Shown: positions 1-57,082 of the stretch, in pieces | Layout of the letters: each line of letters starts with the position of its first letter | Numbering within the stretch: the stretch's first letter is position 1 | From: Theristus sp. LFF4_11 | Taxonomy: Eukaryota; Nematoda; Chromadorea; Monhysterida; Xyalidae | DNA length: 64,000 nt | Direction: 5' to 3' | Assembly: GCA_030248135.1 (NCBI GenBank) | Contig: JASANC010000838.1 | Span: 1-64,000 of the forward strand | Translations under genes and position numbers: made by a program | Notes under the pieces: generated by a model | What the model saw: the letters and a program-made list of their open reading frames with translations, nothing else | Told to the model about the DNA's origin: nothing | Database searches by the model: none

Positions 1-582
1 TGCCATGCAGCCTACACATCATTCAGACCCTCACACCTATTGTGATCGGCATAAAAACCGAGATCACTGGTTGTGAAACCCAGGGTAGTTGTGTTGTGTT
101 GTGTGTTCGCTTAAAAAGCTGAAAATTCAGCTCAGACATAAAACACAATTCGATTGTTTCATGAACACCCAACCGGTGTTGCGAAAAGCAACCAAGTTGC
201 TAACTTTCTGACAGACAGAAGACGGTCAGAAAATTATGACTAGCTGCATACCTTGCGTGCTAGCCGAAAGGTCTTCAAACAAGGACCGAAGGAGTCAGGC
301 ACTGACTCCCTAGCCTAATTGACAACCCTGAAGTTGTCATAAGCAGTTTTTGATAAAACTGGTTTCTGCGTGCAGGAACCAGTCGCCTTATCAAGCACAC
401 CTGTTGGCAATATGGCCGACAGAGCATGCTTCTGATAGAGTGCACCGGCCAGGTACACTCAATTTTGGGGGAATGTCCGGTAACTAATTACCGTACACCC
501 CATCAGTGGTGAGGGAGCCGCTGATGATAATGCTGCGGCAAATGCCGCAGACCAAAATCCACCGCCACCGGCGGATGGAATT
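1..582 (+). promoter_or_regulatory. Structured leader of the giant ORF, tiled with stem-loops
   Basis: Non-coding stretch upstream of the 6.4-kb ORF made almost wholly of short inverted repeats. Clear examples are 291-309 (7-bp arms, 5-nt loop), 321-338 (6-bp arms), 344-361 (7-bp arms, 4-nt loop) and 361-380 (8-bp arms with one G-U). The arms are near-perfect and follow each other with few spare bases, as in a highly structured RNA leader. An ATG at 473 opens only a four-codon frame. The long ORF frame is open from 484 but has no ATG until 619. The leader may continue left of the window. No promoter or splice acceptor could be assigned with confidence. Confidence 0.55.
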
Positions 583-3500
583 GTGAATCCCGCCGATGAC
601 GGCGCGGATGATAACGTCATGGAGCATGACGATCAGCTTGGGTTGGAGGAACCCATGGAATACCAGGTGGCTGAGGCCCAGCCATCTCGGATTCATTTGA
701 AAGACGGTGAAGAACCGTCGCTCGAGCTGTTCTGGCAGCAGCTCGGTTTTGAGGACGAAGGGTCCAGAACGCTAGTGGAGACTTATCCACTAGCAATAAA
801 AGTAAGCCAGACGGACTCTGAGCAGCATTGCAAAGAGACCGTCATGGTCTTCGTGAGAGACGATCGGGATCAGTTCCCGAACGTATCAGAAGGTTGGATG
901 AACCTTGCCAACCTCAACAACTGGGTCGTGTTGCCCAGTATGGAGAACTACCGGCCGATTGCCGCGATTCGCGCCAATCGCCAGTATTTCTTGATGGACG
1001 ACAATGTCGTCATGACGGTCTGGGCGACTAAAAACCGACCAGACAATTTGAGCGAAGCCGAGCTCCGGTTTCGCATTCATGCACCAAGGGGCACTCCAGG
1101 CCCTTGGGTTGATCTGCAAGCCAATTTGCGGCTTACACCGAAAAACTTATTCGCGTTGTCGCGAGTAACGTCTCAGTGGTCCATTACGGACTTCGGCAAC
1201 GACTACCCCACAGGTGCCGTCCACCTGTTGGTGAATAGTCTGAAGTCAAAAGCACCAAGCCCTCGCTTGGTGATGTATGCGTTCGCAGCAGTCTGCGACC
1301 CGATAGCTTCGTCGCTGCAAATTCCGCAGTATGACGAAGATTATTTGGATGCCGACATGTCTGTCTGGCCCATGACATTGATCCAGCTGATGGATTTCAG
1401 CGAGCAGATCAATTTGGAGCACCAATTTTTGGTGCATGGTCACGCCTCGCTCGCGAAAGAGCAGACGTATGTTGTGCCACGCGGAAATTTTCTGCATGGT
1501 CAAATTAGGCCGCATATGCCGATATACACAAAAGGCATGCGACGTCATAGGGACAATCCGAAATCGGAAATTCTCCCGAACTTGAAACAAACGGGGACCA
1601 CCAAATTCCCGTTTGATTTGAACGAATCACTGTTGGAAAACAGTGAACGTGATAAAATCGCTGATGACCTTGTTTGGCAACAGCGTGTTAATGTCTGGCT
1701 GATGCTAGACCAGTTGTACAAGCGCACCGCGCCTTGTTTTGAAGGTGGCAGGGACGATCTGCCACAAGTTTTGCTGCAGCATCACGAGTATGAGGCCCTC
1801 TGGTCCTCTCGTGAAAGCAGCTATACACGCTCGGAAGCATTCCGGCGGCACTCACGATTGATCGGTCGTGAGATTGGTAAGGCTGAGGCCGTCATTTGGG
1901 TCACAGACCTGAATGAAAACCAACTCGGTGAGTTGGTGGATTTTATGCACCAACAAATGTGCACCATGAATGGTAATGCAGTGCTGCATTACACGTATTT
2001 CGAGCCGGATAAGAAGTATCCCGCTCCTGCAAACGAACAGCAGGAACCTCGGTTCCGAGCTGCCTCGGTTAGAGCCGGGAAGGGCTTTTTGATGAACGTC
2101 AAGTACCCCTTGACGGTTTTCTTCGGTGTGGGCGCATACTGCGTCGCCATCGATTTGAGCTTGATCTTTGATCCGCTCTTGAGAAAAGAGAACAGTACGA
2201 AGGTGACTGTTCTGTTGGAGTTCCTGTTGAACAAGGAAAACACGTTTCACCATTGGGATGACCCAACGGAATTTTTCAAAGGCATGAATGCTGCCTATTC
2301 TGAAGACATGAACAACACTCCGTTGTTCGATCAGGTCCAATTCGAAAATCACCTGGACACACGTCCATTGGTGAAGGCGATTGGATTCGCCAACATGATT
2401 GACGCAAGGCCATACCGGTTTGAGCCGTATGGTGGTAATTATGTGAGCCCAACACCGGGAACGGTGTTGACGGCATTCACATGCAAATTGCACGACCTCG
2501 TGCATTTCACCATGTACGGGTTTGAGAGGAATCTCAAATACCCGGAAGGTTCATGGGATCAAAATGCGATCTCACAGAAACGCCATTTGATCGAATGGCA
2601 TAAAGATGCAGGCAAGCATTATGCCATGCAGTTCAACTGGACAGTGCTCGTTTACGACGCACTGTTTTTCTGCTTAGCGTGCAGCGACAAGTTCGCGACG
2701 CTATCACATAAACCTCGTTCGAAGGGCGAGGTGAATCAGAGGTACAACAAGTACCGCGCCGCTATCGACGTGGGCTTGGCGTACCTGCAAAAGGCCGAAG
2801 AGTGGCCGTTTGATTTCGTGCACAAGATGCCGATAGTCACGCGAGATCTCTCGCTTGACAAGATCTTGAGCAACGAACCGATGCGTCTGATTTTCGCTCA
2901 GACATTGATCGAATACGTGCGCGCTGTGCGCTACGTAGAGAAACACCCTGCGAGAGTGATCGCAGGGACGAACCCACAAGTTCCGCACGCGGTGCCTCGC
3001 GTGCCGGACGAGACAAACAAAAACAGGTTCCAGCCTGCTTTTCGTTCTGACAGGCATCTGATGATGCACCAATACGTCCTCAAGAGGGAAACCAAATTGA
3101 GGAGATGTTACATTCTTCAGTTGAAAGAATGCTCGAAATCGGCAGCATACACGCCGTATGCTCTGTATAGCACGGCAGAAGTTTTTCTGCAGTGGTTCAA
3201 ATACCGACTCCTGAAGTCGACTATTGGCATTGTGATGACCAATGCATCAAGCGACTACGCCTATCAGCTGGCGAAAGTCGTGTACAGCAAGTGTGCTGAA
3301 ACACGCACACTGTGTTTCATGCGTGTGGGAGGTCCACACACATGCAGAGGAGGCTGTCAGCCGACACCGCCGACAGAGTTCGAATTGCAGCCACACGTGC
3401 CTGCAAGCTATCTGGGAAACCAGATGGAGAAAAGGACTCCATGGTTTAGCGTGGAGTTTATCAAGGTGGGCCGCCGCTTTGACGACCCACACAAAAAGCA

Positions 3501-6500
3501 TCTGCTTCACAAGCAGAATCAGGTCATTAGGACGCAAAGAGAGGCTGAGTTTATCGCTCAGGCTATTAGAACGCCAGCCAGTTGGGCCGGTTCGTTTCAC
3601 ATCAGTGAAATCGAAAGGTTGAGTCACTTTGGTGTGATACCAAAGCCAGATTTGATGGACATCAATCCAACGTTTGTGTCCACGAAATGGCCGCATGCAG
3701 TGATGTATGCGTGCACTAATGACGGGGTGTACCCGCCTGGAATCACTCCTGACAATGTGTCAGAAGATTGGCGACGTCGTGAGACGTCGGAGCCGACGCA
3801 TGTCTACGAAGACTTTGACATGCTACACGCTCTGTCCTGTCGTATGAACATCAGTACGACAGATTTGATTGAGTTGCCGCTGAACATGCAATTCAGCTAC
3901 GAAGACGTCAAAGCTTTGACGTTGGCAATTTTGGTGCGTGTCTCAATCGAACGCATTTTGCACCTGCTGTATCAGCATGGTCTGGAAAGGTATGAGCGTC
4001 TGATTCAGAAGCTCATCGATTTGAACAACCTAGTGCCACAAACGGCACGAGGCACGAGCACTCGCACGAGTGTGTTTCGTTTCTGGAATCCGTTCGTGTT
4101 CGACATTCCAGCCAAAAGGAATGACCACCAATCAACGTGGCATTCATTGAAGCCCGTCTGCGCACAACAACTGTGCGACAGTGACGAGTACAATCTGCTG
4201 AAAGACATTGCAGCAGCACGTGCATGGTGGACCGTGTTCCACCATCATAAAACTCTGCCGCTCAGGGAAGAGCTGCAGGAAGCGATTGTGCTGGGTGACG
4301 AAGCCCAGAAGAAAGCACTGATCGAAAAGATCAGAGGTATGGTTGCAGTGCCGACAGCACCTGCAAGAGATCCGGTTCTTGAAATGCGTCAAGAACGATT
4401 CACGGCCGACGTAGAGGCCCAAGCGGCTGTGAATCCACAGCAACCTAATGTGCGTGCCATTGAGCAGCAAGAAAAACAACCGTTGTCGGTTGAAGATCAT
4501 CCATCCTCGGATGCACAAGAGCAATCGAGTGCATCTGAAGATGACGACAGTCAGTCGCAAGTTTCTACGACTGACAATCCACAGCAACAACAGGGTGCTG
4601 CACAACAGGGAGCCTCACGCTTCCGAACTCTCACACCGAGAGCACAAGTGCTCGTACAAAAGTACGGCCAAGTGCTGCAGCCACCAGCGGCGCAGCAATA
4701 TCAACAACAGTTTCCGACTCCGGCAACTGTGGCACCAACGGGAGTAACACCCAGGATGCCATTTATGCACACCACTCGTGGTGTCAGTTTTGCAGCCGCG
4801 GCCGAAAACCGTGCCGCGCTCGATCAAATGCAGCGCGTGTCGATCCTTAGACCTCGACTGCCTGCTCCAGATTCTCAAGGCTTCAAAGTGCCTTATGCAA
4901 AGCAATCGCGTTCAGCGCGATCGCCGTTGCAGGGAGCCCCTCCAGCAAAACGGGTCCCTGGACAAGTTCTTCAACGAGAAGAAAGTTTTTCGGGTGAAAG
5001 TAACCCGGGCAGAAACCTCCCGAGAGGTCGTAAGCGCAGTAAGTCTCGTGAACAGAGACTGTTGCTGCAACAACAACAGCAGGTGGAACAAACCTCTGCT
5101 GATTTTATTTATTGCCCAAAACGCAATTATTTGACGCCTCCGATGAATACATCGCAGGTTGATGATCTTCGTCACTATTACGAAGGTGCAGTGGTGAACC
5201 ACGAGCTGGTTCCCGAGTTGTCAGAAGCCGTGTACCAAAATGCACAGGCTAAACAGACACCGATCACGTTGTCTGATGCAGTGTCTTGCAAAGTGGTGCA
5301 AGACAATAAGAGAGCGCAAGAATACATGCGCCCGACCTATGACACACTGCCACGACCAGTGTATGTGAAAGATCGCAAAACAGCGAATCTGATAGACAGC
5401 TCACCGGAAATGGAGAAACGGCGAGCAGATTATTATGGCAAACCGAAGCCATTGTTGACAACGGACATCCTACCGTTGGATGCGCCATCATGGTTCGCAG
5501 TGCAAGACTTGGGCACGCGAATGAAGGAGAATCCAACAGGATTCCTTGGGGATGCCAGACGTCAGTCTGCATCGCACGTCGCTAACACGATCAAGTGGCT
5601 AGCGTATTTTGTGTCACTTAGTGAACAGGAAGAATTCAACGGCGATCCGCCGGATATTCGTTTGATTGGTGCTGGAACACCAACAGAAAACCTCATTCGC
5701 ATGAGAATTCTGGCTCAAGCAGAAGCTGAGCGAGAAACACGCACAAATGTGCAACTGCACTCTGTGCTACAACCTATGTGGTTGCCGCCACTGCCGGGAC
5801 CGCATCGTTATTGGAACGCGAATGAACAGAACGCGTTCGTGAAAAATTTCTCGGTCGAACCGAGTGCAATGTTGGAACCAGGCCTCGTTGAGGACCTGAA
5901 GAAACCGAATGTGCCTAAACTCACATTCCTTGATGCTGTGCCACCGCCGAAAAAGGACGACGCACAGGAGAAAAAGAAGTCGAGGACGGTGAAACCGAGT
6001 CTCGAAATGCCAAAGAAGCTCGACAAACTGATGTCGGAGCAAAGAAAACGATATAGCAAGAAAGCTACATCGTATCAGCTGCCTAAAAAGACAGTCGAAA
6101 CCAGTTCGACACGAACTGATGGTGATGACACCGAGGAAATGCAATCCGGTGATGAAAACGCTGAAGCAGAAAAGCGTCAGCGAGAACTGCTCGAACAGAT
6201 CAGTTATGATCCGACGATCACATGCAGTGCATGTGGCAATAAAGGACATGAACACTCAGTGTGTCCACTGATGTACATGTCGCTCGAAGCGGACGCAGCT
6301 GAAAAAGCCAAAGCGTCTACGAAATCGGACACAGCCAGTTCGATGACTAAAAAGCAGAAAAATGCTGAGAAATTGGCTGCACTTGCGAAAGCAAGAGAGG
6401 CCGAGAGGCTGGCTAGAGAAAAGTCAGCTCGTGAACACGCGGACCCAACAGCCGCTCAGAAAGCTGCCAAGTCGACAGCAAGTCAGGTGACTGATCAACA

Positions 6501-7047
6501 GTCACAACAAAAACAGTTGAACACAGCCAGTTCAACTGGTCAGTTTGAAGACACAGGCCCAATCGATGTATTGGAAGCTTGTCGGCGTCTTACGCTGGAG
6601 ACTCTGCCGCAGAGCAGACCGACAGCAGGAGACGCCCCGAAAACACAACAACAATCGACTGCCGTTTCGACAGCCGCTGATGCACCGTCGGGCCAGGCGT
6701 CGAGCGCCAGTTCAGCGCGCGTCTCGGTCCCGACTGGACACCGCTCACGCTCGCGTGGCAAGAGCAGAAGCACGTCGCGATCGAAGTCGCGCCGTCAGCT
6801 GCCGCGAACGACATTGGTGGCGTCACCGCCGGCGTCGGGCTACAGCACGTCCGACGATGAAGATCGACCGGCGACTGAGGCACCGATAGAGCAGCAACGG
6901 CGATCGCGACTGCAGACCGACCCGCCGACCGCGTCGCGCACGGACAAAGATTCGTCGAAGACGGCGTCCGACGCGAGCGCGTATTCGACCGACGGCGGCA
7001 GACGGGTTGGCACGCCACGAGGCAAGGGGCGCGGCAGACGGAAGTGA
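583..7047 (+). CDS. Giant single-exon ORF, gag-like protein with CCHC zinc knuckle and RS/basic tail (function unknown)
   Basis: Uninterrupted reading frame of about 2154 codons; codon 1 as listed is GTG and the first ATG is at 619 (codon 13), which is the likelier start unless initiation is non-AUG or an exon lies upstream. Residues 1 to about 1330 look globular and were not recognised. A Gln/Pro-rich linker covers about 1390-1560, Lys-rich coiled segments about 1790-1860, then one CX2CX4HX4C knuckle with C1881, C1884, H1889 and C1894 (6223-6264). A second Lys/Ala/Glu helix-forming stretch follows, then an Arg-Ser-rich region near 2050-2072 and a Gly-Arg-Lys end. The C-terminal order (knuckle, basic tail) resembles retroelement gag or another RNA-packaging protein, but no protease, reverse transcriptase, integrase or polymerase motif was seen in the ORF or after it. 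The coding DNA itself is tiled with hairpins, unlike every other gene here. It could be an endogenous viral gene, a domesticated gag, or a novel RNA-binding protein. Confidence 0.75.
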   Translation: MNPADDGADDNVMEHDDQLGLEEPMEYQVAEAQPSRIHLKDGEEPSLELFWQQLGFEDEGSRTLVETYPLAIKVSQTDSEQHCKETVMVFVRDDRDQFPNVSEGWMNLANLNNWVVLPSMENYRPIAAIRANRQYFLMDDNVVMTVWATKNRPDNLSEAELRFRIHAPRGTPGPWVDLQANLRLTPKNLFALSRVTSQWSITDFGNDYPTGAVHLLVNSLKSKAPSPRLVMYAFAAVCDPIASSLQIPQYDEDYLDADMSVWPMTLIQLMDFSEQINLEHQFLVHGHASLAKEQTYVVPRGNFLHGQIRPHMPIYTKGMRRHRDNPKSEILPNLKQTGTTKFPFDLNESLLENSERDKIADDLVWQQRVNVWLMLDQLYKRTAPCFEGGRDDLPQVLLQHHEYEALWSSRESSYTRSEAFRRHSRLIGREIGKAEAVIWVTDLNENQLGELVDFMHQQMCTMNGNAVLHYTYFEPDKKYPAPANEQQEPRFRAASVRAGKGFLMNVKYPLTVFFGVGAYCVAIDLSLIFDPLLRKENSTKVTVLLEFLLNKENTFHHWDDPTEFFKGMNAAYSEDMNNTPLFDQVQFENHLDTRPLVKAIGFANMIDARPYRFEPYGGNYVSPTPGTVLTAFTCKLHDLVHFTMYGFERNLKYPEGSWDQNAISQKRHLIEWHKDAGKHYAMQFNWTVLVYDALFFCLACSDKFATLSHKPRSKGEVNQRYNKYRAAIDVGLAYLQKAEEWPFDFVHKMPIVTRDLSLDKILSNEPMRLIFAQTLIEYVRAVRYVEKHPARVIAGTNPQVPHAVPRVPDETNKNRFQPAFRSDRHLMMHQYVLKRETKLRRCYILQLKECSKSAAYTPYALYSTAEVFLQWFKYRLLKSTIGIVMTNASSDYAYQLAKVVYSKCAETRTLCFMRVGGPHTCRGGCQPTPPTEFELQPHVPASYLGNQMEKRTPWFSVEFIKVGRRFDDPHKKHLLHKQNQVIRTQREAEFIAQAIRTPASWAGSFHISEIERLSHFGVIPKPDLMDINPTFVSTKWPHAVMYACTNDGVYPPGITPDNVSEDWRRRETSEPTHVYEDFDMLHALSCRMNISTTDLIELPLNMQFSYEDVKALTLAILVRVSIERILHLLYQHGLERYERLIQKLIDLNNLVPQTARGTSTRTSVFRFWNPFVFDIPAKRNDHQSTWHSLKPVCAQQLCDSDEYNLLKDIAAARAWWTVFHHHKTLPLREELQEAIVLGDEAQKKALIEKIRGMVAVPTAPARDPVLEMRQERFTADVEAQAAVNPQQPNVRAIEQQEKQPLSVEDHPSSDAQEQSSASEDDDSQSQVSTTDNPQQQQGAAQQGASRFRTLTPRAQVLVQKYGQVLQPPAAQQYQQQFPTPATVAPTGVTPRMPFMHTTRGVSFAAAAENRAALDQMQRVSILRPRLPAPDSQGFKVPYAKQSRSARSPLQGAPPAKRVPGQVLQREESFSGESNPGRNLPRGRKRSKSREQRLLLQQQQQVEQTSADFIYCPKRNYLTPPMNTSQVDDLRHYYEGAVVNHELVPELSEAVYQNAQAKQTPITLSDAVSCKVVQDNKRAQEYMRPTYDTLPRPVYVKDRKTANLIDSSPEMEKRRADYYGKPKPLLTTDILPLDAPSWFAVQDLGTRMKENPTGFLGDARRQSASHVANTIKWLAYFVSLSEQEEFNGDPPDIRLIGAGTPTENLIRMRILAQAEAERETRTNVQLHSVLQPMWLPPLPGPHRYWNANEQNAFVKNFSVEPSAMLEPGLVEDLKKPNVPKLTFLDAVPPPKKDDAQEKKKSRTVKPSLEMPKKLDKLMSEQRKRYSKKATSYQLPKKTVETSSTRTDGDDTEEMQSGDENAEAEKRQRELLEQISYDPTITCSACGNKGHEHSVCPLMYMSLEADAAEKAKASTKSDTASSMTKKQKNAEKLAALAKAREAERLAREKSAREHADPTAAQKAAKSTASQVTDQQSQQKQLNTASSTGQFEDTGPIDVLEACRRLTLETLPQSRPTAGDAPKTQQQSTAVSTAADAPSGQASSASSARVSVPTGHRSRSRGKSRSTSRSKSRRQLPRTTLVASPPASGYSTSDDEDRPATEAPIEQQRRSRLQTDPPTASRTDKDSSKTASDASAYSTDGGRRVGTPRGKGRGRRK
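6223..6264 (+). other. CCHC zinc-knuckle coding segment
   Basis: Encodes CSACGNKGHEHSVC, fitting the CX2CX4HX4C nucleocapsid-type knuckle that binds single-stranded nucleic acid. Only one copy is present. It is the only sequence-level clue to the biochemical role of the giant ORF. Confidence 0.8.
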
Positions 7048-7900
7048 TTGTCGAAGACGACAACCGTTTGGATGGCACCACCGCCATTTGATGGACAACG
7101 ACAGCGTCGTTGCCCGGCTGGACACTGAACACTGGACACTCTGGTGAAAAACGTTGTTTTTCCGTTTTTGTTTTTGAGCAGGCGTTGCTTGCTGTGTTCA
7201 CGTGCCATCTTAGCCGTCTAATGCCTTCTGCCTTTTGTCACAGACGTTGTCTGTTGACTGTTGTTGTAACAGTTCTGTTACCTTGTGCCACGCTTGTGTG
7301 CTGCTTTTGAGTCCCTTTAGAGGGCTGGTAAAGGTAATTTTAATGCTTTGCCACAACACTAACCCAACTTCGATTCCAACAGTTTTTCTTTTCGTGATTT
7401 TTGTGATTTGTTGTTTTTCGTGTTTGTAAAACACTCTAATAAAATAACCTTGTTATTTTTCTCACTCACACTTTCGATGTGGTAACATTGAGGGGAACAA
7501 CCACACGCACTGTCGCATGTGGCCCCGATCACCATTGTGATCTATTTTTGTTTGTGTTTCTACTAGTTTGTTGTTTTGCCGGAAGTGTTTTTGTTTTTTT
7601 TTTTTTTTTTTTTTTTCTCAAACAAAGATTTTTATGTTTGTGTTTTTTGAAGTTTGGGGTTAAAAGTCATAGGCGACTGCACTGTTGTATTCGCCCTTAA
7701 CAAACAGTTGTAATTACCAACAAAATCCACAGTTTTCTCCACTCTTTTTATTCACTGTTTCACACACCACATCTTTTCAACAACAATCACCATCAATTGT
7801 AACCAATACACAATAGTGTAGCGTTTCATAAACGTTACTCTTTCACGTCCCACATTTGTGGCCTCGTGGAAGAGGCCTTTTTAAAGGGGGGGGGGTAGTT
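7048..7900 (+). other. Hairpin-rich trailer with poly(A) signal and T-tract
   Basis: Hairpin tiling continues past the stop codon: 7048-7063, 7501-7522, 7527-7542 and 7860-7877 are perfect or near-perfect stems. An AATAAA lies at 7438-7443 inside another stem (arms AAAATAA and TTATTTT). A 23-base T run is at 7594-7616. The tiling fades near 7900 where a G-run begins. This fits a structured 3' UTR, with the coding unit ending near 7450-7600 or continuing to about 7900. Confidence 0.5.
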
Positions 7901-8157
7901 GTCAGGTCCATACAACGACCGTGCCAACCGCTTCCAACGTTTCAACGCTAAACTACTCTTTTATCTTCACCAATCTCTACCTTTATCTATTCTTTTATAC
8001 CAACTCATCTATTCTTTGCACATTGGTTGATACGTGATGTGTGTCTTTTATCAGTGTCTTCCTTTGTGTGCTCACTACACTTCACTTCTTCATCGCCTTG
8101 ACCAATAAAATGCACAAGTATGCGATTTGTTCGGCCGAAGCCGTCTACCGCCTACTA
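7901..8157. other. Short intergenic stretch, C/T-rich on plus strand
   Basis: No ORF or motif with support; an AATAAA at 8104-8109 on the plus strand is the only signal seen. Confidence 0.3.
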
Positions 8158-8228
8158 TTAAGGCGTATAGGCGTCCAGGCGATTCAAGGCGTCTAGGCGA
8201 CAAGGCGTCTAGGCGATATAGGCGACTC
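8158..8228. repeat. Degenerate TAGGCG-type minisatellite
   Basis: About seven imperfect copies of a 9-12 bp unit built on AGGCGTCTAGGCG. It lies beyond the 3' end of the minus-strand secreted-protein gene and shows no coding potential. Confidence 0.7.
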
Positions 8229-8455
8229 ACTCGCTGGGCCCCTATTGGTACCAGTGCCGGTGAACGGTTCGCCTATAACCGTTGTCTTGTGTGCGACATT
8301 CGCGCAGCGATGACTTCATCCAAGTCAGTTGTCTCCAGTCTGAAAACTCAATGTACAACCCGGTCAGAACAAGTGAGAGTTGTTCCACCGTTCGGTCAAC
8401 ATGTGAGTGCCCTGTCAGGCCATGTGGCAGATGGTCTACAGTTTGGTACGTTGAC

Positions 8456-10158
8456 TCAACGTCCGAAACCGCTGCCTCGGGCAGTTGATGTAAAAGCAAC
8501 CACCCCAGTGGCAGTGGGGTCGGGCGTTGCTTCACAATTTGCATACGGGTTGTACAGGTTGGCATAGGTCGCTGGCCTGTAACTGCTGGCGTACTGTAGC
8601 GCATTGTAACTACCGTAATAAGGACTTGCAGTGGCAAATCGATTGTATGTGTTGTACGGGTAGGAGCCTACGTTGTTGTAGGGGTATGGGTAGCGGTTGA
8701 AAGCAGCGTACAAGTTGTTTTGGTTGGTGTACGCATTGTTGTTGTAGTACGGGTAGCGATTGCTGTTGTAATTGATGTTGTTGCTTGGATAGTAGGTGTT
8801 CAGATTGCCAGAATACGTGGCTGGTCGAATCAAGGGGCCTGGGTAGATGTTGCTGTTGCTGAGCGCTTGATAGTACGGTTGAGTGGCGAGCATGTTGCTG
8901 GCCAAATAGGGGTACATCGCCTGTTGCGACGGCGCAGCGAGCGCTCGCGGTGACTGAATGCAGGTTTGCAGCTGTGGCTGTAGGCTGCGTTGCAGTTGCT
9001 GGCGTGCTTGGCACAGACATGAGCTCAGCACCGATCGGCTGGCAATAATGCGACACTGGCCGCTTTGGCGAACTCTGCAACGCAAACGTTTCATTATAAA
9101 CTGAGCATTTCATAAAACAACGCATGCGAAGTCTTGGTGAGTGAGGTGTTCCAAAAGCTGGCTCACAAGCATGACTCGTCTGTGGGTCCCCCATTTTTAG
9201 GGGGTCATTTGATTGTGGCGGACAAAGCAGCCTGCCAACTGGTCGCCACTCACTGCTGAACGCATTGGCGCCGTTGTTGCTGCAGCTGACGCACCAGCGC
9301 TGCCAGTTGAGTGTCCGCTTGCAGTCGATTCTGGGCACAACGGAACTCGCTGGTCGTCAGCTCGCATCTCGCCGCGAGCTCGTTCGCGAGCGCGTCATCC
9401 GTGCTCGAGACACCGAGGATGCTCGCAACTGCGGACGGACATGCCGCCTGCACCGTCTCCCATTGGAGGCCCCAGTAAACGTCCGAAATGCCGGCGTCTA
9501 TTGCTGCCAACTCTAGTGGATCGGCTGTGCACAAAAAAATTGAAATAAAAAACATTCCATTTTTTGAAAAATTATATAAATTTGTGAATTGCGAATACGA
9601 TTTGCTTTGGCGTTTAGAATAAAGTCACAGAAATAAGCGACTGTACCTAACTGCGCGAACAGCGCATTAGATGCGCCAATAATTTGGAAGAGACCATTTG
9701 TGCCAGAGGCCTCCGTCGACAAACAGTCTTCCACGTTGCGGATATGCGTTTGAAACGCTGATACTGAGCCTAAAAAGCATGTTTGCTTATGACAGGACTG
9801 CAACTAATTGAATTAAAAAACAGCTGTTGACTGATTCATATGGAAAGTGTACCTCCGATGGGTGGCTCAAGGGCAGCATAGAGTGTCGTGGCACGCAGGG
9901 GCTGTTGTACGCCAACATTGACGCATCGTCGATAATTGATCCACGTGTTTTGGCATCTGCGAACAACAGTGTTGATTTCAAATTTGATAGAACCACAGTC
10001 TGAACAGACTCGGCAAAAGAACTGCACTTGAGATTACTGGCGGTGCATTCGCCAAAGATGGCCGTCTTTCGATCGTCGATGCTTCGCAAGAGCGCCGCGT
10101 TGCCGGTGGCACACTGCTGCAGGCGACGGCCGCACGACTCTTGACTGCGCACCGCAGC
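8456..10158 (-). CDS. Secreted Cys-rich protein with Tyr/Asn-rich tail, paralogue 1 (first exon not found)
   Basis: Five exons assigned on the minus strand: 10028-10158, 9853-9956, 9647-9769, 9254-9524 and 8456-9074; all phases join (2, 1, 1, 2). The product matches paralogue 2 (14826-17678) exon by exon: shared motifs include CQNTWINYRRCV, LELAAIDAG, the YWGLQW block, and a QCR...CLC..ARQQLQ segment just before MYPYL. Cysteines are spaced as in the paralogue, implying conserved disulfides outside the cell. The last roughly 130 residues are Tyr, Asn and Pro-rich low complexity, like structural cuticle, eggshell or matrix proteins. The signal-peptide exon, present in the paralogue as a separate 15-codon exon, should lie above 10158 but no convincing ATG exon was seen, so the 5' end is incomplete. 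Family not recognised; the extracellular role is inferred from the paralogue. Confidence 0.72.
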
Positions 10159-21440: not shown

Positions 21441-24400
21441 TGATATTCTGGATTGTAATTTCAAAGATTTTGCAGAAAAATTTAACGTTTTTTCTTCAAA
21501 ATTTAAGCGAAAAAATATTATGGGTCATGGGAGGGGTGGGGGGGATGGGGTGTGCACCCCCAGTCGCCCCAGAAATTTTTTACAGTAGTGCATCCCCCAT
21601 GGACGACGCCTGGGGGTGTCATTGTCACTGTAACATGATTGACAACCCCCCCCCCCACCAACTGAAAAATTTTTGGCACCCCCACGTGACGACACCCTCC
21701 CCCTCCAAAATTTGTTTTCGCCTTCGGTACTGCCCCCACATGGACCTGAGGGCTATCTATTTTGGGTTTCTGGGGGTAAAACTTCTGTGCGATGACGTTT
21801 TTGAGCGTCCCAAAGCTTGGCTTATCATTTCCGATTCCGATGCAGATAAGGTGACGATTCGCCTCGCCCTCGCAATCTGAATTCTGAGCGTCCGAGCTGC
21901 TCCGTTTGCATCGAATTTCACGCCGGTATTTGGTTTTCATTTGAGCTTGGGACAATTAGTAAAAAATAACGATTTTTGTTTTTTTAACAACCCAGCAAAT
22001 TTTGTTTTTGGGTGGGGTGCCAAGCAAATTTTGAGGGGGGTTGTAGTCGTGTGGATGGTCCAATACTCCAGCCAGTATCGGATTTTAGGGGGTGGGTGTA
22101 GACTGTAGGTGTAGGGTTAAGGGGTAAAAAATTGTCAATGTCCAACTTTTGGAACACCCTGGAGTAAAACTCCTCACTTTTCAGACACTACTCACTTTTA
22201 TAAAACTGACCACTGGCAGAAAAATTTCGTGAGGGCGGGGGGGGCGGGGGTGCACGGGATCGCACGGGTAATACTAAATTTTTGCCTCGGGAAAACACGG
22301 AAATTCTTGTAAATACAGAATATTTTGTGCAAAGAAGCTGCTTGTTTGGTCAGAAACAACAAAATCTGTGCAGGGACAGACACAAACGTAAAAAATGCAA
22401 AAATTACGGTATTTTTTGGAAAAATTGAGATGAGATTGACCACCGTGAGGGGGGGTACGATCCCGTGTTTTCTCGCGGAGGGGGGTGGAGGGGAGTCTAG
22501 TACCCGTGTCGGTATCTGCCCGTGCACAGGCACCCCCCCCCCACTTTCGCTACTGATATTGAACCGTTCTTAGTTTAATCAGTACCGAAGATGAGGGGGG
22601 TGGGAGGGTACACCCCCTAGAGCACCCGAGACCTCCGCGTGGGGGGGTGGGGGGGGATCACGCGACACCCACCCCCAAAACCGGACACTGGACCATCCAC
22701 ACCCCCCCTCGAAATTTGCTGGACACCCCACCCATCCCCCCCCCTACATGGACCTAAGTAACAGTGACACCCCCAAAAATTTTCTCGGACCACCCAAAAA
22801 TCATGAATTTTTGCTCAAAAATCATGATTTTTTGTCCTTAAAGTCCATAATATAAGCTAAATATATGGTAACTTGACATTCTTCATTGTAATTTCAAAGA
22901 TTTTGCAGCAAAATTTAGCGTTTTTCCTTCAAAATTTAAGCGAAAAAATCTCATGGGTGGGGTGGGGGGTGTGCACCCCCCCAGAAATTTTTCTACAATA
23001 GTGTACCCCTCCATGGCCCACGCCTGAGGCTGGGGGGTGTCACTGTACCATGACTGACACCCCCCCCCCACTGAAAAAATTTCGGCACCCCCCACGTGAC
23101 GACACCCCCCCCTCGAAAATTTGCTTTCGCCTTCGGTACTGGTTGTTCCTCTGTATAAAATTACCAAAATTGACTGTGTTCAAAAATTCCTGTTTGCTGC
23201 AGCTAGGGTTAGGGAAAAAAGAGTTGGATTTTTTTAAATTAATTTTTTTTAAATTTTTTTACAAGTTAGCTAAGTTCGTTCGAAGCGTCTCGTCGAGCTG
23301 AGTTCAGCTAGACCGTTTTCAGAACGATCCGGAGAACTATAAGAGCGAAAATCGTGTTTTATTGAAATTTTGTCCATTTCATGGAGGTAAAGTTGCATTT
23401 TCAATAGTAAAACAGGACAATTTTTGACGTGTACACTTGAATATTGAACCGTTCTTAGTTTTTCCTCTTTAAAATTACCAAAATTTGATTGTGTTCAAAA
23501 ATTCCTGTGGCTAAGTCGGCAACCCCTGTCGACCCGGTCGCCCCGCTTCCAACGTCGCAGCCCATGTGGTGCAGTACCGTGGGCGGGGGGGGGGGGGGGG
23601 GGTGGGGGGCTACACACACACCCCCCAGAGCACCAGAGACCGTCGGGTGGGGGGGGGGGGGGGGGGCACCGTGCCACCAGTACCGTGGGCCCAAAACAAT
23701 TTTCGAAGGGGGGGGGTATGGTGCCGGGGGGGGGGGGGTGCCGACCAAAAAGTGTTGGGGGGGGGGTCCAACCTATGGTAACGTGGGACCCCCCATGGGG
23801 GTCCCATGGGGAGGGGGGTGCGTTTTTTCAAAATTTTCTGTGGGGGGGTCCACCCCCCACCCCCCCCATGATAATTTTTCGCTTAAATTTTGAAGGAAAA
23901 ACGCTAAATTTTGCTGCAAAATCGTTGAAATTACAATGAAGATGGTCAAGTTATTATATATTCAGCTTATATTATGGACTTTATAGACAAAAAATCGTGA
24001 TTTTCGAAAAAAAATTCTGGGTGTACGGAAAATTTTGGGGGGGGAGGGTCTCCGCCAGACAAAATTTCATGGGGGGTGTGGGGGGGTGTCGGCCAAATTT
24101 TCGAGGGGGGGTCCGATGGGGGGGGGGGGTGCCCGGTTTTAGGGGGGGGGGGGTGGCACGGCACGGTGCCCCCCCCCACCCGACGGTCTCTGGTGCTCTG
24201 GGAGGGGGTGTACCCCCCCCCCCCCCCCCTCGCCCACGGTACTGCGTGCCACCCCCCCCCCCTAAAACCGGGCACCCCCCCATCGGACCCCCCCTCGAAA
24301 ATTTGGCCGACACCCCCCACACACCCCATGAAATTTTGTCTGGCGGAGACCCCCCCCCAAAATTTTCTGCACACCCGAAATTTTTTTTCGAAAATCATGA

Positions 24401-25480
24401 TTTTTTGTCTATAAACAGGGGTCGAGCCCGATTTTTGGCGAATCCGAGGGGGGGGGTCCGCCCAAATTTGGGGGGGGTCGTCCCGGGTGGGGGGGTCGAC
24501 TTGGTGGGGGGGGGCTCCCGAGCGAGACCGAAAATTCTAGGGGGGGGTCCGAGCGAGACCGAAAATTCTAGGGGGGGGGGTCGGACCAAAATTTTTTCTT
24601 GACGATGACATTGTCTGGGCAAAAAATGGCTAGTAGGGGTCGATTTGGTTGGGGGGGGGGTCCCGAGCGAGACCGAAAATTCTAGGGGGGGGGGTCGGAC
24701 CAAAAGTTGTTGAATAAAAGTGCTAGAAACCACAGCATCCAGTCAAGGCCTCTCTCTAGTCACACATTTTGCTTTGATTTTCGTTCGGGTCGGGACCAGT
24801 ACCGAAGACGAAAGCAAATTTTCGAGGGGGGGGTGTCGTCACGTGGGGGGGGGGGGGTGCCGAAAATTTTTCAGTGAGGGGTGTCAGTCATGGTACAGTG
24901 ACACCCCCCCAGGCGTGGGCCATGGGGGGGGTGCACTATTGTAGAAAATTTTCTGGGGGGCATAGTTGTTCCAGAGCCGAGGGGTTGGGGGGGGGGCCGA
25001 TATAGATAGCTGGAGAAAATTTTCTGGATAGATAGATAGCTGGAAAATTTTGGGGGGGGGCGCGGGGGGGCCATGTGACTTTAGGGGGGGCCGGTCAAAA
25101 TTTTGAAATTTAATAGATAGATAGCTAAAACGCTAAAAAGCTATAAAAACAGCAAAATAATGCTAAAAATACACTAAAAATCAAGTATAAACGCGTATTT
25201 TACCTAAAATTAGCGAAATTTTCAAGAATTACGAGCAAAAATGGTCAATTTTGGTCAAAAATTGACTCATTTTATGTCTTCGAAGACAAAAATTTTCAGA
25301 TAGATAGCTGGCTGAGAAATTTTTTTAGATAGATAATAGCTGAGCCGAAAAAACCTGTCTGATAGAGATAGATTCGAATTTTTTTTGGGGTGGGGGGCGG
25401 CCCCCCCAGGCCCCCCCCCTAGAACAACTATGCTGGGGGGGTGCACACCCCCCACCTAGAGATGTCAAGAAAAAAAAATT
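21440..25480. repeat. G/C homopolymer-tract mosaic, left part
   Basis: Runs of 7 to 15 G or C alternate with short AT-rich spacers of the type CAAAATTTTCGAGGGGGGG, often mirrored by the complementary C-tract version nearby (for example 24060-24200 against 24230-24390). Frames here are Gly- or Pro-rich artefacts. The G-runs are dense enough to allow many G-quadruplexes. ACCAGTACCGAAGA-type motifs recur next to the tracts at about 22578, 23130 and 24800. Confidence 0.6.
22600..23530. repeat. Inverted repeat arm paired with 26905-27600
   Basis: Two blocks are inverted copies of downstream sequence: 22640-22960 (around AAATCATGAATTTTTGCTC and TTTAAGCGAAAAAATCTCATGGG) pairs with 27285-27600, and 23205-23530 (around TCGTCGAGCTGAGTTCA and CCTGTCGACCCGGTCGCCCC) pairs with 26905-27270. 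Divergence is low apart from tract length. Confidence 0.65.
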
Positions 25481-47400: not shown

Positions 47401-50400
47401 AACAAACCGAGAATCGCACTGGTGCACGGCCCGCCAGGCACCGGCAAATCGGCCACCATTGTTGGCCTCGTTGACAGACTCGTTCACGTAAAGTTGTCGC
47501 TGTTGTTCAAGAGATTGGTGGTTTGTCGAAGCCTGTCACACTGAGTGGTGAAAGTGTGCAATGGAGTGACAGGCGGCTCCATGCGCAGTTTGTGTGCGCT
47601 CTGTGATCAGCTGCCTCGATCGCTGTCTGTGTCCAGGCACGTCGCCAGCTGGAACGCCAAGCCGCTGGCAACCGACGTCGCTTGAACGAGTTACAGCGGA
47701 CGCTTGGCCCGATCCTGCTCTGTGCGCCATCGAACAACGCCGTCGACAACGTGATGCTGGCAATGTTGCGGCGTAACCAACGATGCACGCAAGAAACATG
47801 TGTGTCTGCCATTCAAACGTTTGTAACGGTGGTGGTAGGTGGCAGCAGCATGGTAACTGCAGCATGCAGTGGTACGCAACAACACCCAATCAGTTCAGTT
47901 GTGTGATTTCCAGCCGCATGGCGTCTGCTGCGCGTTGGTCAAACGATCGACATGCACCCGGAGGTCGCAGCCACGATTGCACTGCCGCAGTCGGCGCCAA
48001 AGCACGAGGCTGAACAGAGGCTGAACGAGGCGCACGTGATTGGCACGACGTTGATGTCCAGCAGTGCGCCCGTCACCGACTCGTTGCTCGGTGTACGTGG
48101 GTCTTCGCTCTTGGTGGTTGCCTTGAGTTGCAGTGGAGTGTGACATTCGCATTGGCACGTTCGTTGATTCGCCAACCTGAAGTTGTTCGCTGTTGTTATG
48201 CGTAGTGGACAATGCTGATGGACGGCTCAGAGTGGACTGGACACCGATTGCGATGGACTGGAGCGCAACCAGCTTGCCCCACCACAGCACCATAGCAAAC
48301 AGCTGATAATTGACAGCCACCCACGTGGTGCAAACTTGATATCACATACATCATTACTGTTGCTGATCTAATTCGTTTTTTTTTGAAGGCTCACAAGAAA
48401 ACACAAGTCCATTCGTTTTTTGTTTCATTTTCAGAAGAAACTGCAGTGTGTGCTGGTGGACGAGGCGTGCCAATCGACGGAGATCGAAGCGCTGCTGCCA
48501 TTGCGCTTCGACTGCAACAAAGTCGCTCTGTTTGGCGACCCGTGTCAGTTGCAGCCGACTGTTTTGGCGCCTGTAAGAATTCGGAAATTTGAAGTCTTAT
48601 ATGTCCAGTCAAACTATAAGACATGCATAAACAACTGCAATTCGTGCATTCTAGCGTTTCAGTCTGGTATGCTGAATTGCTGCATTGAGCTGGATAAGTG
48701 AACCAATCAGTGAGCTCAACTCAGAAGCAACTGATCAGCTGACTGCACGTTCACATTCAACCAATCCACTGTGTTTCACCGTGCACCGCGTTTCTCTTGC
48801 ACAGGCTCTCCTGTCAACGACGTTCCCGAACAGTCTCTATTCGCGCATCGTGCATCAGCTGACCAACGGCCAATCTGAGCATTTCTGCCGGCAGGCGTTT
48901 CTCTTGGACACCCAGTATCGTATGGCCAGCGAAATCGCACATTTCCCGTCGGCGTTCGTCTACGAGAATCGATTGAAAACCGAGTCAGTTGTTGTCATGT
49001 GGGGTCATATGAGTGGCAGAGAAACTGCTCTTGAATTGGGAATCATGGTTAGTTTTTTAATTTTTTTCAGCGAATCCGTCGAGAAAGAGGTGCGTAAGAA
49101 TTACGGTCAACTGTCGCGGTATCTCGTGTTCAACACACCGAGTGGCCAAGAACGACTTGACCCAGTGACATTGTTCGTGGTCTCTTCTCTGTTCACATTC
49201 TTTGGTTGTTCTGCTATCAGAAAGCATCAACTGTTTCATTTTCTCGAACACCAATCAGCAGACCGTGACCGTGTTTGCTTCGTTTTCCCCAGGTCGTACT
49301 GCAATTGCTACGAAGCGAATTTCGTGGGCGACCTTTGTGAAGTGATTTGTGGTGTGGGTAAACTGGCAGCCGGTGCTATCGGTGTGATCACGTTCTACGC
49401 TGACCAAGTAGCACTCACTGAACGCACTCTGCGGCGGCGCAAGTAACATTGAGAGCATCTGTAGTGATGTCTTTCCACCAGTTTCCAGAAACTTGAAACG
49501 TACCAAAGCCAAGCTCCGCTGGTTGGCATGGATGGACGACCAGCGTCACGTGACACAAAGTGCTTGCCAGTATTGAACGAGTATAGTTGCTCTTCGTAGT
49601 TCTTGTTTAGGGCAGCTCTGACCACGAAGCCTTTTGGTTTTCAGGTTTCAAGCAATTGTGTCAATTAGCGGATGGGCTAATGTTGATTGGGCAAGGCAGG
49701 TTCCAAACGAATAAGCTTCTGTCATTCTAAGTGAGATTGGTTATTATTAAGATTTGGCCAACTGAGCAACGTTGAAGTGAACACGGTCGACGGGTTCCAA
49801 GGTCGAGAAAAGCACGTGATCATTTTGTCGTGCGTCCGGTCGAGTCGGTTGGGGTAGGTGGCCATTTTGAACAATTGCTGCACGGCAGGTTGCAGAGTTG
49901 ATTGAGTGAGTAAGTGATTGATTGATTGATTGAACTGAACTGAACTGATTGATTGACTGATGCATAGTGCGTCTAATGTTTCCAGTTTTGTTGCTGACAC
50001 ACGACGAATGAATGTGGCGATCACACGTGCCAAGTACGCGCTGTACATCGTCGGCAACACAGACGTGCTAGCGGTTGGTCCGGTTGCACACTGTTGTTGT
50101 AATTCCTTGTTGTCATTTTTGATACTTTCCTGATTTTTAAGAGACCGTCCGGAATTAGGAGGAACATTTTGGTAATACTCTGCCCCTAGCCGAAAATCGA
50201 TTTCGCTCAAATTTGGTATGGAGGTACCCTTAGGTCCAACTAAGAAAAAACCGGCCCGCTTTTGGAATGAGACCCTTGTGGTGTGGCGCTACAGGTCTCC
50301 AAAGTAGGGTATTTCGTCGAAAAACGTCATTTTTGGCGTTTTGAAAAAAAGATCTTTTAAGGCAACACAGAAGCGTTATCGAATATTGGTGTTAATATGA

Positions 50401-54430: not shown

Positions 54431-57082
54431 ATGCACTCCGATTGCTTAGTGAGCCTGCACAGATGCAGCAGTGCACGCAGCAGCAAGCAGCCGCAGCCCC
54501 CGGAGGTGTTGCTGCCGGCCAGCGCGAGCGCCATCGAGCAGCGTCGTGTGGCCGTCGTGCTGGGCGGCACGTTCGACCGGCTCCATGACGGGCATCGCAG
54601 GCTGCTCGCGGCCGCAGCGACCTTGGCCACGGAGAAAGTCACCGTCGGCGTCACGCACGGGCCCATGCTCGCACGTAAGGCTGCTCACAGGGCAAACTGA
54701 TAGTCATGCAACGTACAACCCACTGCGACAAACAATCCAATTCAAAACAAGACTCGAACTGTTGGTTCAGTGCAGAATCCTGTGTTCTCAGGCAAAGTGC
54801 TGTGCGAACTGATACAACCGCTTGACGTGCGCATCGAGGAAGTGCGTCGCTTTCTGAAACAAGCGAATCCACGCCTGCAGCAGTACGTGCACAGTCACAC
54901 TGAACGTTGCTAAACGGCCCAGTCCAAAGACAGGCCACCTGGTTGTTGTAGCACAACAGTAAGATAACACAGTCACAAACAAGGACACAAGCATGGATGC
55001 AAAAAACACAGCAGCGTGTGTGCTTGTCAGCGACTGTACAACATCACAGTGCTACAAGTGCGCTGTCTTCACAGCAGCATTTTTTAAACAAGCAAACGTT
55101 GCTCCCTGTTGCTGATCGCTGATGACATGCTGTGCGCAGGTATGAGGTTGTGCCGATTTGTGATCCGTTTGGTCCGTCCATCGTCGACTCTGCTCTTGAT
55201 GCGATTGTGGTCAGCCGAGAGACAGTCAAAGGTGCTCATCGGGTCAACCAAAAACGCATTGAAAACGTATGCATCTGTTTGCTCGGGTGGTTTTTATCGT
55301 CAGTTATTATTCATTGGTTTGTGAGCTGTGCACTACCACCGAGGTAGTGTGTGCTGTGGTGTGCTCATTGTTTCATTCTGTGCTTGCAGCTTCAACAAAA
55401 ATCGTGAGTCTGTTTCAATTGCAGGGTCTCGACCAGTTGGATGTGTTCATCATTGACTTCGTCAAAGATGCCTCGTCTGAGTCTGCTGAGAAACTCAGCT
55501 CCACTGAGGTGCGAAAACGGCAACTCGGCAAAATGCTGAAACCGCCGGTTCGGTGCAATTTATTCGGCCAAACTGTTTCCACACGTTTTATTCTGACTTT
55601 CAGTTTGTGTCAGCCACTAATAAATTCATTTTCAGACAGGGACGCGAAAAAACGAAACAGGACCGTACATTATTGGTCTAGCGGGTGGAATCGCGAGTGG
55701 CAAGACGCACATTGCCGGCTATCTGGCCGAGTTGGGCGCGGACGTCGTTGACTGCGACACACTCGCCCATGAGACGTACTTGCCCGGCACTGCTGTGTAC
55801 GACAGGTGTGGTGCTGTGCACGTTCCGTCTTTGCGTTCGCTGTTTTGTTTAGAACAAGGAACAAGAACGAGACTCATTAAGCCAATAGGAAAAAGGAGTT
55901 GTTTAAAGCTGGTTTCCAAATCTATGATCGTGGGCACCATTCAGCTCACTAAACTTGGTACAACTAATCTGCCAGCTTTGGTCCGTTCTGAACAAACTGG
56001 GATGAATAAAGTTCCAGCAGCATGTTTGTTTTGTCTTTTGTGCTACTGTGGTACTTACATTGCATCTCAGATTGATTGATGAGTTCGGCATTGCGATCGT
56101 GCATGGTGAACGTGGCCGCGCGATTGACCGCCGCGTTCTTGGCAACGTTGTGTTCGAAGACGAGGTGGGAAGTTGACTGAAGTCTGCGTCGCTCACTGTG
56201 CACTTGCACTGGCATTCACTGCGCGTTGTCCCAGCCATAAAATGCTTTGCTTGCACGCATCTATTGACTGATTGAAACCGCAAACGAGCTTCATCTGTTG
56301 TACTGTCGACAAACGTCCATCCATCTATCCAACCATTTTTATTTTGCTGAAAACATGAACCCCGAATAGTGTTATGCCGCCTGGTGCTAGCATTGAGCCG
56401 ACGCAAGTGGCCAACCAGTGAGTCTCTCAGTGGCTTCATTTTGTTGTTTTCTCGCACAGAATCGCCGTCATCGTCTTGAGCAGATCGTCTGGCCTGCCAT
56501 CAAGCAGCTCGTCCATCAGCGAATACAGAAATCAAGTTCGACCAAAGTGTCATTTGTCAGTGTTGCGTTGTGTCATCGTGTTTTGTATTGCTCTGCAATC
56601 AACGAGTGCATTTGTGTCAGCAAGTCGAGTGCTCGTGTTGGATGCCGCCGTGCTGCTGGAAGCGCACTGGGACAGTCTCGTAGACGAAGTGTGGCTGCCA
56701 ATCATTCCGAAAGACGAGGCAGTCAAACGGTTGGCTGAGCGAAACAAACTCACAGAGCAACAGGTGGGATGGCAATGGGCCCATTGCGTGGCCTGTTGGC
56801 GCTTTTGCAGCTGACTGGACTGAGCTGTACGCAACTGACAGTCTACGAGTTTAGCCAATTCGCATGCCACCTTTCGTCGTGTTTGTGGCATAAGTGCTGT
56901 GCCGTTGTCGTGACTTTTATGATGAAATATACAAAGATGCGAACGTTCGTGAATGATTGCAGGCGACACAACGTTTGGACGCGCAGATGAGCAACGCTGA
57001 ACGCATGCAACACGCGAACGTTGTGTTCTGCTCGCTGTGGCAATACGAAGAGACCAAACGACAGGTATTATCTCTTCTTTAA
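54431..57082 (+). CDS. COASY: Bifunctional coenzyme A synthase (PPAT and dephospho-CoA kinase)
   Basis: Nine coding exons: 54431-54674, 54792-54882, 55140-55266, 55425-55547, 55636-55805, 56071-56164, 56460-56535, 56621-56763, 56963-57082; total 396 codons with stop, all phases consistent. The first half is a phosphopantetheine adenylyltransferase domain with [11 protein letters not shown] (45-55), [17 protein letters not shown] and VVSRET. The second half is dephospho-CoA kinase: P-loop [11 protein letters not shown] (209-219), [42 protein letters not shown] and NVVFCSLW. Together they perform the last two steps of CoA synthesis, 4'-phosphopantetheine to dephospho-CoA to CoA. It lacks most of the roughly 180-residue N-terminal region of human COASY, unless exons lie upstream. 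The end is modelled as read-through of a GT site giving VLSLL then TAA; a last short exon is possible. The exon 7-8 junction uses a weak donor. Confidence 0.93.

Follow-up and report, generated by a model that had tools for sequence, protein, structure and literature searches.

Genome-scale RNA hairpin structure in a nematode lineage of Ty3/gypsy-type long terminal repeat retrotransposons with a giant third open reading frame

Results

Architecture of the element

The window analysed in this study is a stretch of 64,000 nucleotides from the nematode Theristus sp. LFF4_11 (GenBank assembly GCA_030248135.1, contig JASANC010000838.1, here C530, positions 1 to 64,000 of the forward strand). Positions 1 to 8536 belong to a Ty3/gypsy-type long terminal repeat (LTR) retrotransposon, of which they form the 3′ part; the element has been active recently, carries a giant third open reading frame (ORF3) and is densely tiled with short hairpins. 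Window position 1 is the first base of the contig; the 5′ part of the element is therefore cut off, and the 5′ LTR of this copy lies off the contig. The features of the element listed here are on the plus strand. A hairpin-tiled leader, recognised from the stem list and folding energy and lacking its 5′ part, lies between pol and ORF3 (1..618). The ORF3 frame of 2187 codons (484..7047), supported by stem counts and substitution rates, is likewise tiled and encodes 2142 aa from its first ATG at 619. It is followed by a 3′ untranslated region (UTR) with further listed hairpins (7048..7899), by the polypurine tract AAAGGGGGGGGGG (7883..7895) shortly before the LTR, and by the 3′ LTR itself (7900..8536), which has TG...CA-type ends (TGTCAGG...TTCACA). 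The LTR was delimited by the 3′ end common to all near-identical copies, which is window position 8536, and by its last 417 bases, found at 42 places in the genome.

When the 159-Mb assembly was searched with the ORF3 protein, 22 of 348 first-look candidates were scored and 24 matches resulted: six full-length at 99-100% identity, the window's included, three partial at 100%, one at 68% and the rest at 38-41%. On contig C2891, which holds the 68% relative, the LTR sequence is present twice, 19.2 kb apart; the pair measures 684 bp and is 98.8% identical (L035 1-684, L022 1720-2402). This is the only copy seen with both LTRs, and it gives the element a length of 19.9 kb and the order LTR, gag-pol, leader, ORF3, 3′ UTR, LTR, with a single very long gag-pol frame and a non-coding leader of about 1.5 kb. 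The gag-pol of relatives, outside the window, contains Retrotrans_gag (E 1.3e-7) followed by reverse transcriptase, RNase H, H2C2 and integrase domains; a protease DTGA and a cysteine-histidine motif of Gag's own were noted by eye. Both the LTR pair and the order reverse transcriptase, RNase H, integrase that define Ty3/gypsy elements were thus found in relatives. The Gag piece (L035 3086-5485) also had a weak PNMA match (E 0.0014, under the curated cut-off), and the 800 aa of the long frame upstream of this piece gave no clear family assignment.

These findings revise the initial annotation, which had described a 7.9-kb unit at 1-7900 and named a capsid-encoding element among its possible roles. 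What lies here is the portion of a multi-copy element downstream of pol (leader, ORF3, trailer and LTR, the element ending at 8536); its Gag and Pol are encoded further upstream, beyond the window. An RNA virus or capsid-only unit was dropped once pol and LTRs had been found, and a domesticated gag was not borne out, the unit being the 3′ part of a retrotransposon with its own gag-pol. The suggestion of an active, RNA-virus-like element was right in spirit, the carrier being an LTR retrotransposon.

Stem tiling in the window

Non-overlapping inverted repeats with arms of at least 6 bp and loops of 2-14 nt were tallied per 2-kb block. Blocks over window 1-6000 held 33, 35 and 32 stems versus 5.6, 6.4 and 5.5 in dinucleotide shuffles (z 13.3, 15.0 and 12.4), an excess of 5.5-5.9-fold. 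Block 6001-8000 held 18 versus 7.2 (z 4.8), with a thinning at about 6500-7040, and the remaining 28 of the 32 blocks had z of only -1.1 to 3.3. The tiling initially described is confirmed apart from the thinner stretch; it runs across the coding boundary, leader and ORF both being stem-rich, and is absent from neighbouring host sequence, as had been claimed. All 11 example stems named at that time were found in place, with perfect arms of 6-9 bp and loops of 2-11 nt, and two can be extended by one pair (320-339, 771-794). Representative hairpins from the stem list are one in the leader at 291..309 (8-bp arms, 3-nt loop) and two in the ORF at 771..794 (9-bp arms, 6-nt loop) and 6514..6538 (9-bp arms, 7-nt loop).

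The codons of ORF3 were then permuted with protein and codon usage both preserved. ORF3 of the window has 96 stems versus 19.9±4.6 in permuted copies (z 16.7). Because codon permutation abolishes the stem signal, the tiling is encoded in the choice of synonymous codons, besides the non-coding leader.

Folding energy and extent of the tiling

The folding-energy difference (MFED) was calculated in folding windows of 350 nt. Against codon permutation it reached 24.2% for ORF3 of the window, 37.6% for ORF3 of L014, 25.2% for gag-pol of C2891 and 37.1% for pol of C3744, versus 0.3, 2.8 and 0.2% for three control elements. Against dinucleotide shuffles the same four regions gave 28.0, 38.3, 24.7 and 38.4%, host flanks 4.6, 5.1 and 0.9%, and control elements 0.2 and 2.7%. 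Leaders of two other copies gave 50.7 and 49.7% against these shuffles (4 and 3 folding windows) and that of the window copy 33.4% (1 folding window); the 3′ UTR of the window had an MFED of 16.6% in 3 folding windows. Values were positive in 21/21 and 21/21 folding windows of the two ORF3s, 24/24 of gag-pol and 21/21 of pol, versus 0.2-5.1% in controls. MFED was thus raised throughout, as is expected of genome-scale ordered RNA structure (GORS).

On C2891 the internal region holds 217 stems: 70 in 7315 bp and 25 in 2067 bp of gag-pol, 24 in 1540 bp of leader, 92 in 6825 bp of ORF3 and 6 in 787 bp of 3′ UTR. Its 5′ LTR has 1 stem in 684 bp, its 3′ LTR 1 in 683 bp and the flank 7 in 3099 bp. 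The LTR of the window has 6 stems starting between 8149 and 8502 and an MFED of 18.7% in 2 folding windows; thus, the LTR is not untiled in all copies.

We surveyed ORF3 in twelve copies, excluding the near-identical L002-L007, L009 and L010. Stems exceeded the codon-permuted null in 12/12 (z 8.9 to 18.3), and relatives down to about 35% identity were tiled as well, with stems at different places. Six gag-pol stretches of the clade had stem ratios of 2.2 to 4.8 over null. Seven other integrase-bearing elements in the same genome were untiled, six at ratios of 0.6 to 1.6 and the seventh at 0.86; two of them, L036 and L039, had z of 2.3 and 2.2. Two host open frames had 8 stems versus 5.7 expected and 3 versus 3.1. 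These results support an extremely strong genome-scale RNA structure in a single LTR retrotransposon lineage; the feature is real, strong and unusual.

Hairpin anatomy and turnover

Inverted 8-mers were enriched only at gaps of 3-14 nt (131 vs 14.0 expected), with 19 versus 17.4 at gaps of 15-30 nt and no excess at greater distances. Direct 8-mers showed a mild excess at every distance tested (e.g., 49 vs 29.0 at gaps of 3-14 nt). Linkers between hairpins were preferentially 6-18 nt long. No common loop sequence was observed, the most frequent tetraloop being GAAA (15/349).

Stems with gaps in the partner sequence were excluded from comparisons between relatives. At 94% nucleotide identity 48/67 and 52/64 stems were intact; at 84%, 22-30 of 55-56; at 71%, 24/94 and 18/81; and at 47-59%, 0-5 of 46-90. 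Stems thus lose their positions past about 30% nucleotide divergence, and the inherited property is hairpin density; single hairpins turn over.

Selection on the sense RNA

With near-duplicates removed, GNRA made up 29/278 tetraloops versus 4.4% in codon-permuted hairpins, and its complement 8/278 versus 2.6%; the excess is confined to the sense direction. Compensatory changes numbered 122 versus 84.5 expected. In ORF3 (three pairs of relatives, both directions), with expectations calculated separately for each pair type and codon position, there were 84 compensatory pairs versus 52.7 expected; unchanged pairs were also in excess, and observed/expected ratios were 0.69 for G.U, 0.56 for A.C and 0.57 for other mispairs. 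Sequence change is slower in arms than in loops or outside the stems, and at four-fold degenerate sites divergence in arms was about half to two thirds of that outside. Because of the GNRA loops, the compensatory changes and the slow arms, selection probably acts on the sense RNA, a conclusion that we regard as supported but not proven. The initial annotation had left the choice between RNA and single-stranded DNA open; RNA is the likelier target, and the parallel it had drawn with GORS of RNA viruses is apt. The three outcomes that it had anticipated, namely stem density and folding energy above codon-preserving or dinucleotide shuffles and compensatory change among homologues, were all observed.

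Near-identical copies had a 6-nt inverted copy nearby at just 2 of 34 difference clusters, both at the same site, in a count for which no null was computed; templated (template-switch) mutation was therefore not favoured.

The ORF3 protein

ORF3 is under purifying selection, with ratios of nonsynonymous to synonymous substitution of 0.27, 0.24 and 0.21 in three pairs of relatives. Protein searches found no relatives among 3479 and 4131 candidates, and none was found among 265 stretches of viral contigs. As far as searched, ORF3 is a giant orphan protein of about 2200 aa. A CCHC zinc knuckle, CSACGNKGHEHSVC, lies near its C-terminus (6223..6264).

Structural modelling and fold searches predicted a DEDD 3′-5′ exonuclease-like fold for one part of ORF3 (1861..2388). 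In the modelled piece, residues 62-220 had predicted local distance difference test scores (pLDDT) of about 60-87; a first model of residues 95-1290 was uninformative (mean pLDDT 42.2). The low-confidence model of the piece suggests a core resembling the hairpin-binding protein Egalitarian. The catalytic acids of motif I (DxE) that mark the DEDD superfamily are replaced, here by HYTYF: H[YF][TS][YF]F was found in 10/10 aligned rows and in 18/20 ORF3 loci, the remaining two being truncated. Placement of the motif was done by eye, with E. coli RNase D and the predicted strands as guides. Alignment of the ORF3 profile, which holds only 2.2 effective sequences, with one RNase D by hhalign gave a probability of 0.1.

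Other candidates were rejected. Matches to 5′-tyrosyl-DNA phosphodiesterase in a PDB sequence search were at chance level (best E 0.6 and 0.22), and a match to the SLBP RNA-binding domain was weak (1/9 members, E 0.055). The best 19-residue hydropathy was 1.73-1.98 in 9/10 ORF3s and 2.59 in L016, there in an N-terminal extension of the frame upstream of the usual start region. A retroviral-type Env was dropped, as strong transmembrane segments were absent from the ORF3 core.

Other features of the copies and the locus

Relative to L006 and L007, 966 bp are missing from the window copy at about 498-502, with a short CAT at both edges; this loss removes leader sequence and the start of ORF3. ORF3 of L006 (contig C3072) has one internal TGA, one internal TAG and dense G-rich differences near its start; broken copies therefore coexist with intact ones. 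In all nine near-identical copies (C530, C2768, C695, C1348, C2100, C3072, C2338, C803 and C2414) the 5′ side lies at a contig end or no more than about 2 kb from one. This position had prompted consideration of a telomeric HeT-A-like element, which was dropped: the element has LTRs and an integrase, and the contig ends are explained by breaks of the assembly, probably within the repeat, rather than by telomeres. Window 8149-8225, in the LTR, contains degenerate AGGCG-type repeats (e.g., TCTAGGCGA). Elsewhere in the window are host exons for an AAA_12 protein (48676-49443, E 1.9e-15) and a dephospho-CoA kinase (55624-56076, CoaE, E 7.5e-11), and long overlapping G- or P-rich open frames on both strands at 23448-24602, which are low-complexity and repeat-like.

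Discussion

The identity of the element, the tiling with its limits, its dependence on synonymous choice and the compensatory change come directly from computation, and the RNA structure is well supported; that ORF3 or Gag binds it, and for what purpose, we infer. Our best reading, which we place a little short of an even chance, is that the hairpins form a genome-scale RNA structure bound by ORF3 and/or Gag. The genomic RNA would be selected to fold locally into dense, short, near-perfect hairpins with short linkers across gag-pol, leader and ORF3, and selection would keep their density rather than particular hairpins. The hairpins would most likely turn the long RNA into a compact, protein-coated particle. 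ORF3, with its putative pseudo-exonuclease-like domain and zinc knuckle, and/or Gag may bind stem-loops by shape, not sequence, and such binding may single out the unspliced genome to be protected, exported or packaged. If any hairpin suffices for binding, single hairpins can be lost and gained at constant density, which matches the observed turnover. In its fullest form, evolution would have recast the entire genomic RNA as hundreds of interchangeable hairpins in series, each a site for the element's own giant pseudo-exonuclease/zinc-knuckle protein; together they would make up a distributed, sequence-independent packaging or marking code that persists as single hairpins turn over. In this form the proposal is possible but on balance doubtful.

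Several observations weigh against this reading. Pairing is strictly Watson-Crick: helices with one mispair numbered 63 with G.U and 73 with A.C, and G.U-containing helices stood at 1.57 times the null and A.C-containing ones at 1.38 times, so that G.U is hardly preferred. When pol was counted in, giving twelve comparisons, G.U (0.77) and A.C (0.73) were kept alike, and pol stems were not conserved at the divergence compared. An excess of G...A loop ends disappeared against codon-permuted hairpins (1.16 vs 1.09). The plus strand gained more stability than the minus strand in 7/7 ORFs, an ambiguous result, since the minus strand starts from a more stable shuffled baseline. C142, whose ORF3 homologue has 33% identity, is intermediate, with weak tiling (ORF3 33 vs 16.5, pol 13 vs 7.7) and an MFED of 12.0% against codon permutation for ORF3. 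The DEDD-like model has a mean pLDDT of only 50.0 and no sequence-profile support, and ORF3 gave no Pfam match.

Hairpins might be kept for their own sake, hiding the RNA from recognition by the host or from targeting by small RNAs, with no element protein reading them. High MFED with poorly conserved positions, as in coronaviruses (PMC7642675), is consistent with this, as are stem turnover and the absence of a common loop sequence; however, the same host defence should press on the seven untiled integrase-bearing elements, and enrichment confined to loops of 3-14 nt is more uniform than general folding requires. We consider shielding unlikely. Less likely again is that hairpins prevent splicing, premature polyadenylation or nuclear retention of a long unspliced RNA, with ORF3 acting like CERV of Cer1. 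ORF3 occupies the CERV position after pol, its core has no transmembrane-like segment, and CERV is required for nuclear export of Cer1 genomic RNA; yet CERV is a 517-aa product of a spliced mRNA (PMC10309623).

A mutational origin, in which template switching by reverse transcriptase or a host polymerase perfects imperfect palindromes with no selection on folding, would explain the strict pairing with G.U nearly equal to A.C, the restriction to one retroelement lineage and the sharp limit to short loops. The scarcity of inverted copies beside recent differences, the slower evolution of arms and the sense-only GNRA excess argue against it, and we give it slightly less credence than the splicing and export explanation. 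An artefact, whether arising from base composition, codon composition or the protein sequence, has a negligible chance: nothing points to it beyond the mild direct-repeat excess, the signal survives dinucleotide and codon-permutation controls, and host and element controls are untiled.

Genome-scale RNA structure has been discussed for RNA viruses, where its purpose is disputed. With tiled and untiled LTR elements sharing one genome, a natural comparison is at hand under the same host and the same defences, to which lineages with intermediate tiling such as C142 add. The element also ties hairpin tiling, in a concrete and testable way, to a family of giant, function-unassigned proteins that, by its predicted fold, may resemble inactive stem-loop-binding nucleases. 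If true, binding of hairpins by ORF3 would be a new way for a retroelement to handle its own RNA.

The fold predicted, at low confidence, for the ORF3 core resembles Drosophila Egalitarian. The exonuclease-homology domain of Egalitarian binds mRNA stem-loops by shape, including the signal of the I-factor retrotransposon, and catalysis is dispensable for binding (PMC13186709). However, the two proteins have no sequence similarity, and Egalitarian targets bent stem-loops with bulges, whereas stems of the element are short and perfect. LTR retrotransposons and Terminons of bdelloid rotifers (PMC5408684, PMC6431247) are likewise large invertebrate retroelements, and their DEDD-type domain lies downstream of pol, as does the putative one of the present element. 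The rotifer DEDDy ORF3 has recognisable sequence homology and keeps its catalytic residues (DEED); in the present ORF3 the predicted fold alone is similar, the acids of motif I have been replaced, and the protein, with its CCHC knuckle, runs to about 2200 aa. CERV of the Ty3/gypsy element Cer1 of C. elegans (PMC10309623) is also a novel cysteine-rich protein, with its C-terminal half encoded after pol, and handles genomic RNA, as ORF3 may; it differs in its size, its spliced mRNA and a C4-type loop.

The genomic RNA of yeast Ty3, another Ty3/gypsy element, has structured parts by SHAPE-MaP, but its well-folded core is about 20% of the RNA, and the available part of the report does not mention end-to-end tiling (PMC11381356). 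We found no tiled or GORS-like LTR retrotransposon in the limited literature searched and, as far as these searches went, the element represents GORS in a new kind of carrier. Coronavirus GORS (PMC7642675) shares with it stem-loops across coding regions, high MFED and positions poorly conserved among relatives. Published viral MFED values are 7.5-10.7% for hepatitis C virus, about 15% for SARS-CoV-2 and, as the highest value reported there, 23.4% in a deltacoronavirus; the element exceeds this value, a comparison to be made with care since the shuffle algorithms differ. The structure described here differs from that of coronaviruses in being carried by an LTR retrotransposon, in its MFED of 24-38%, about 50% in the leader, and in the enrichment of only short, tight hairpins.

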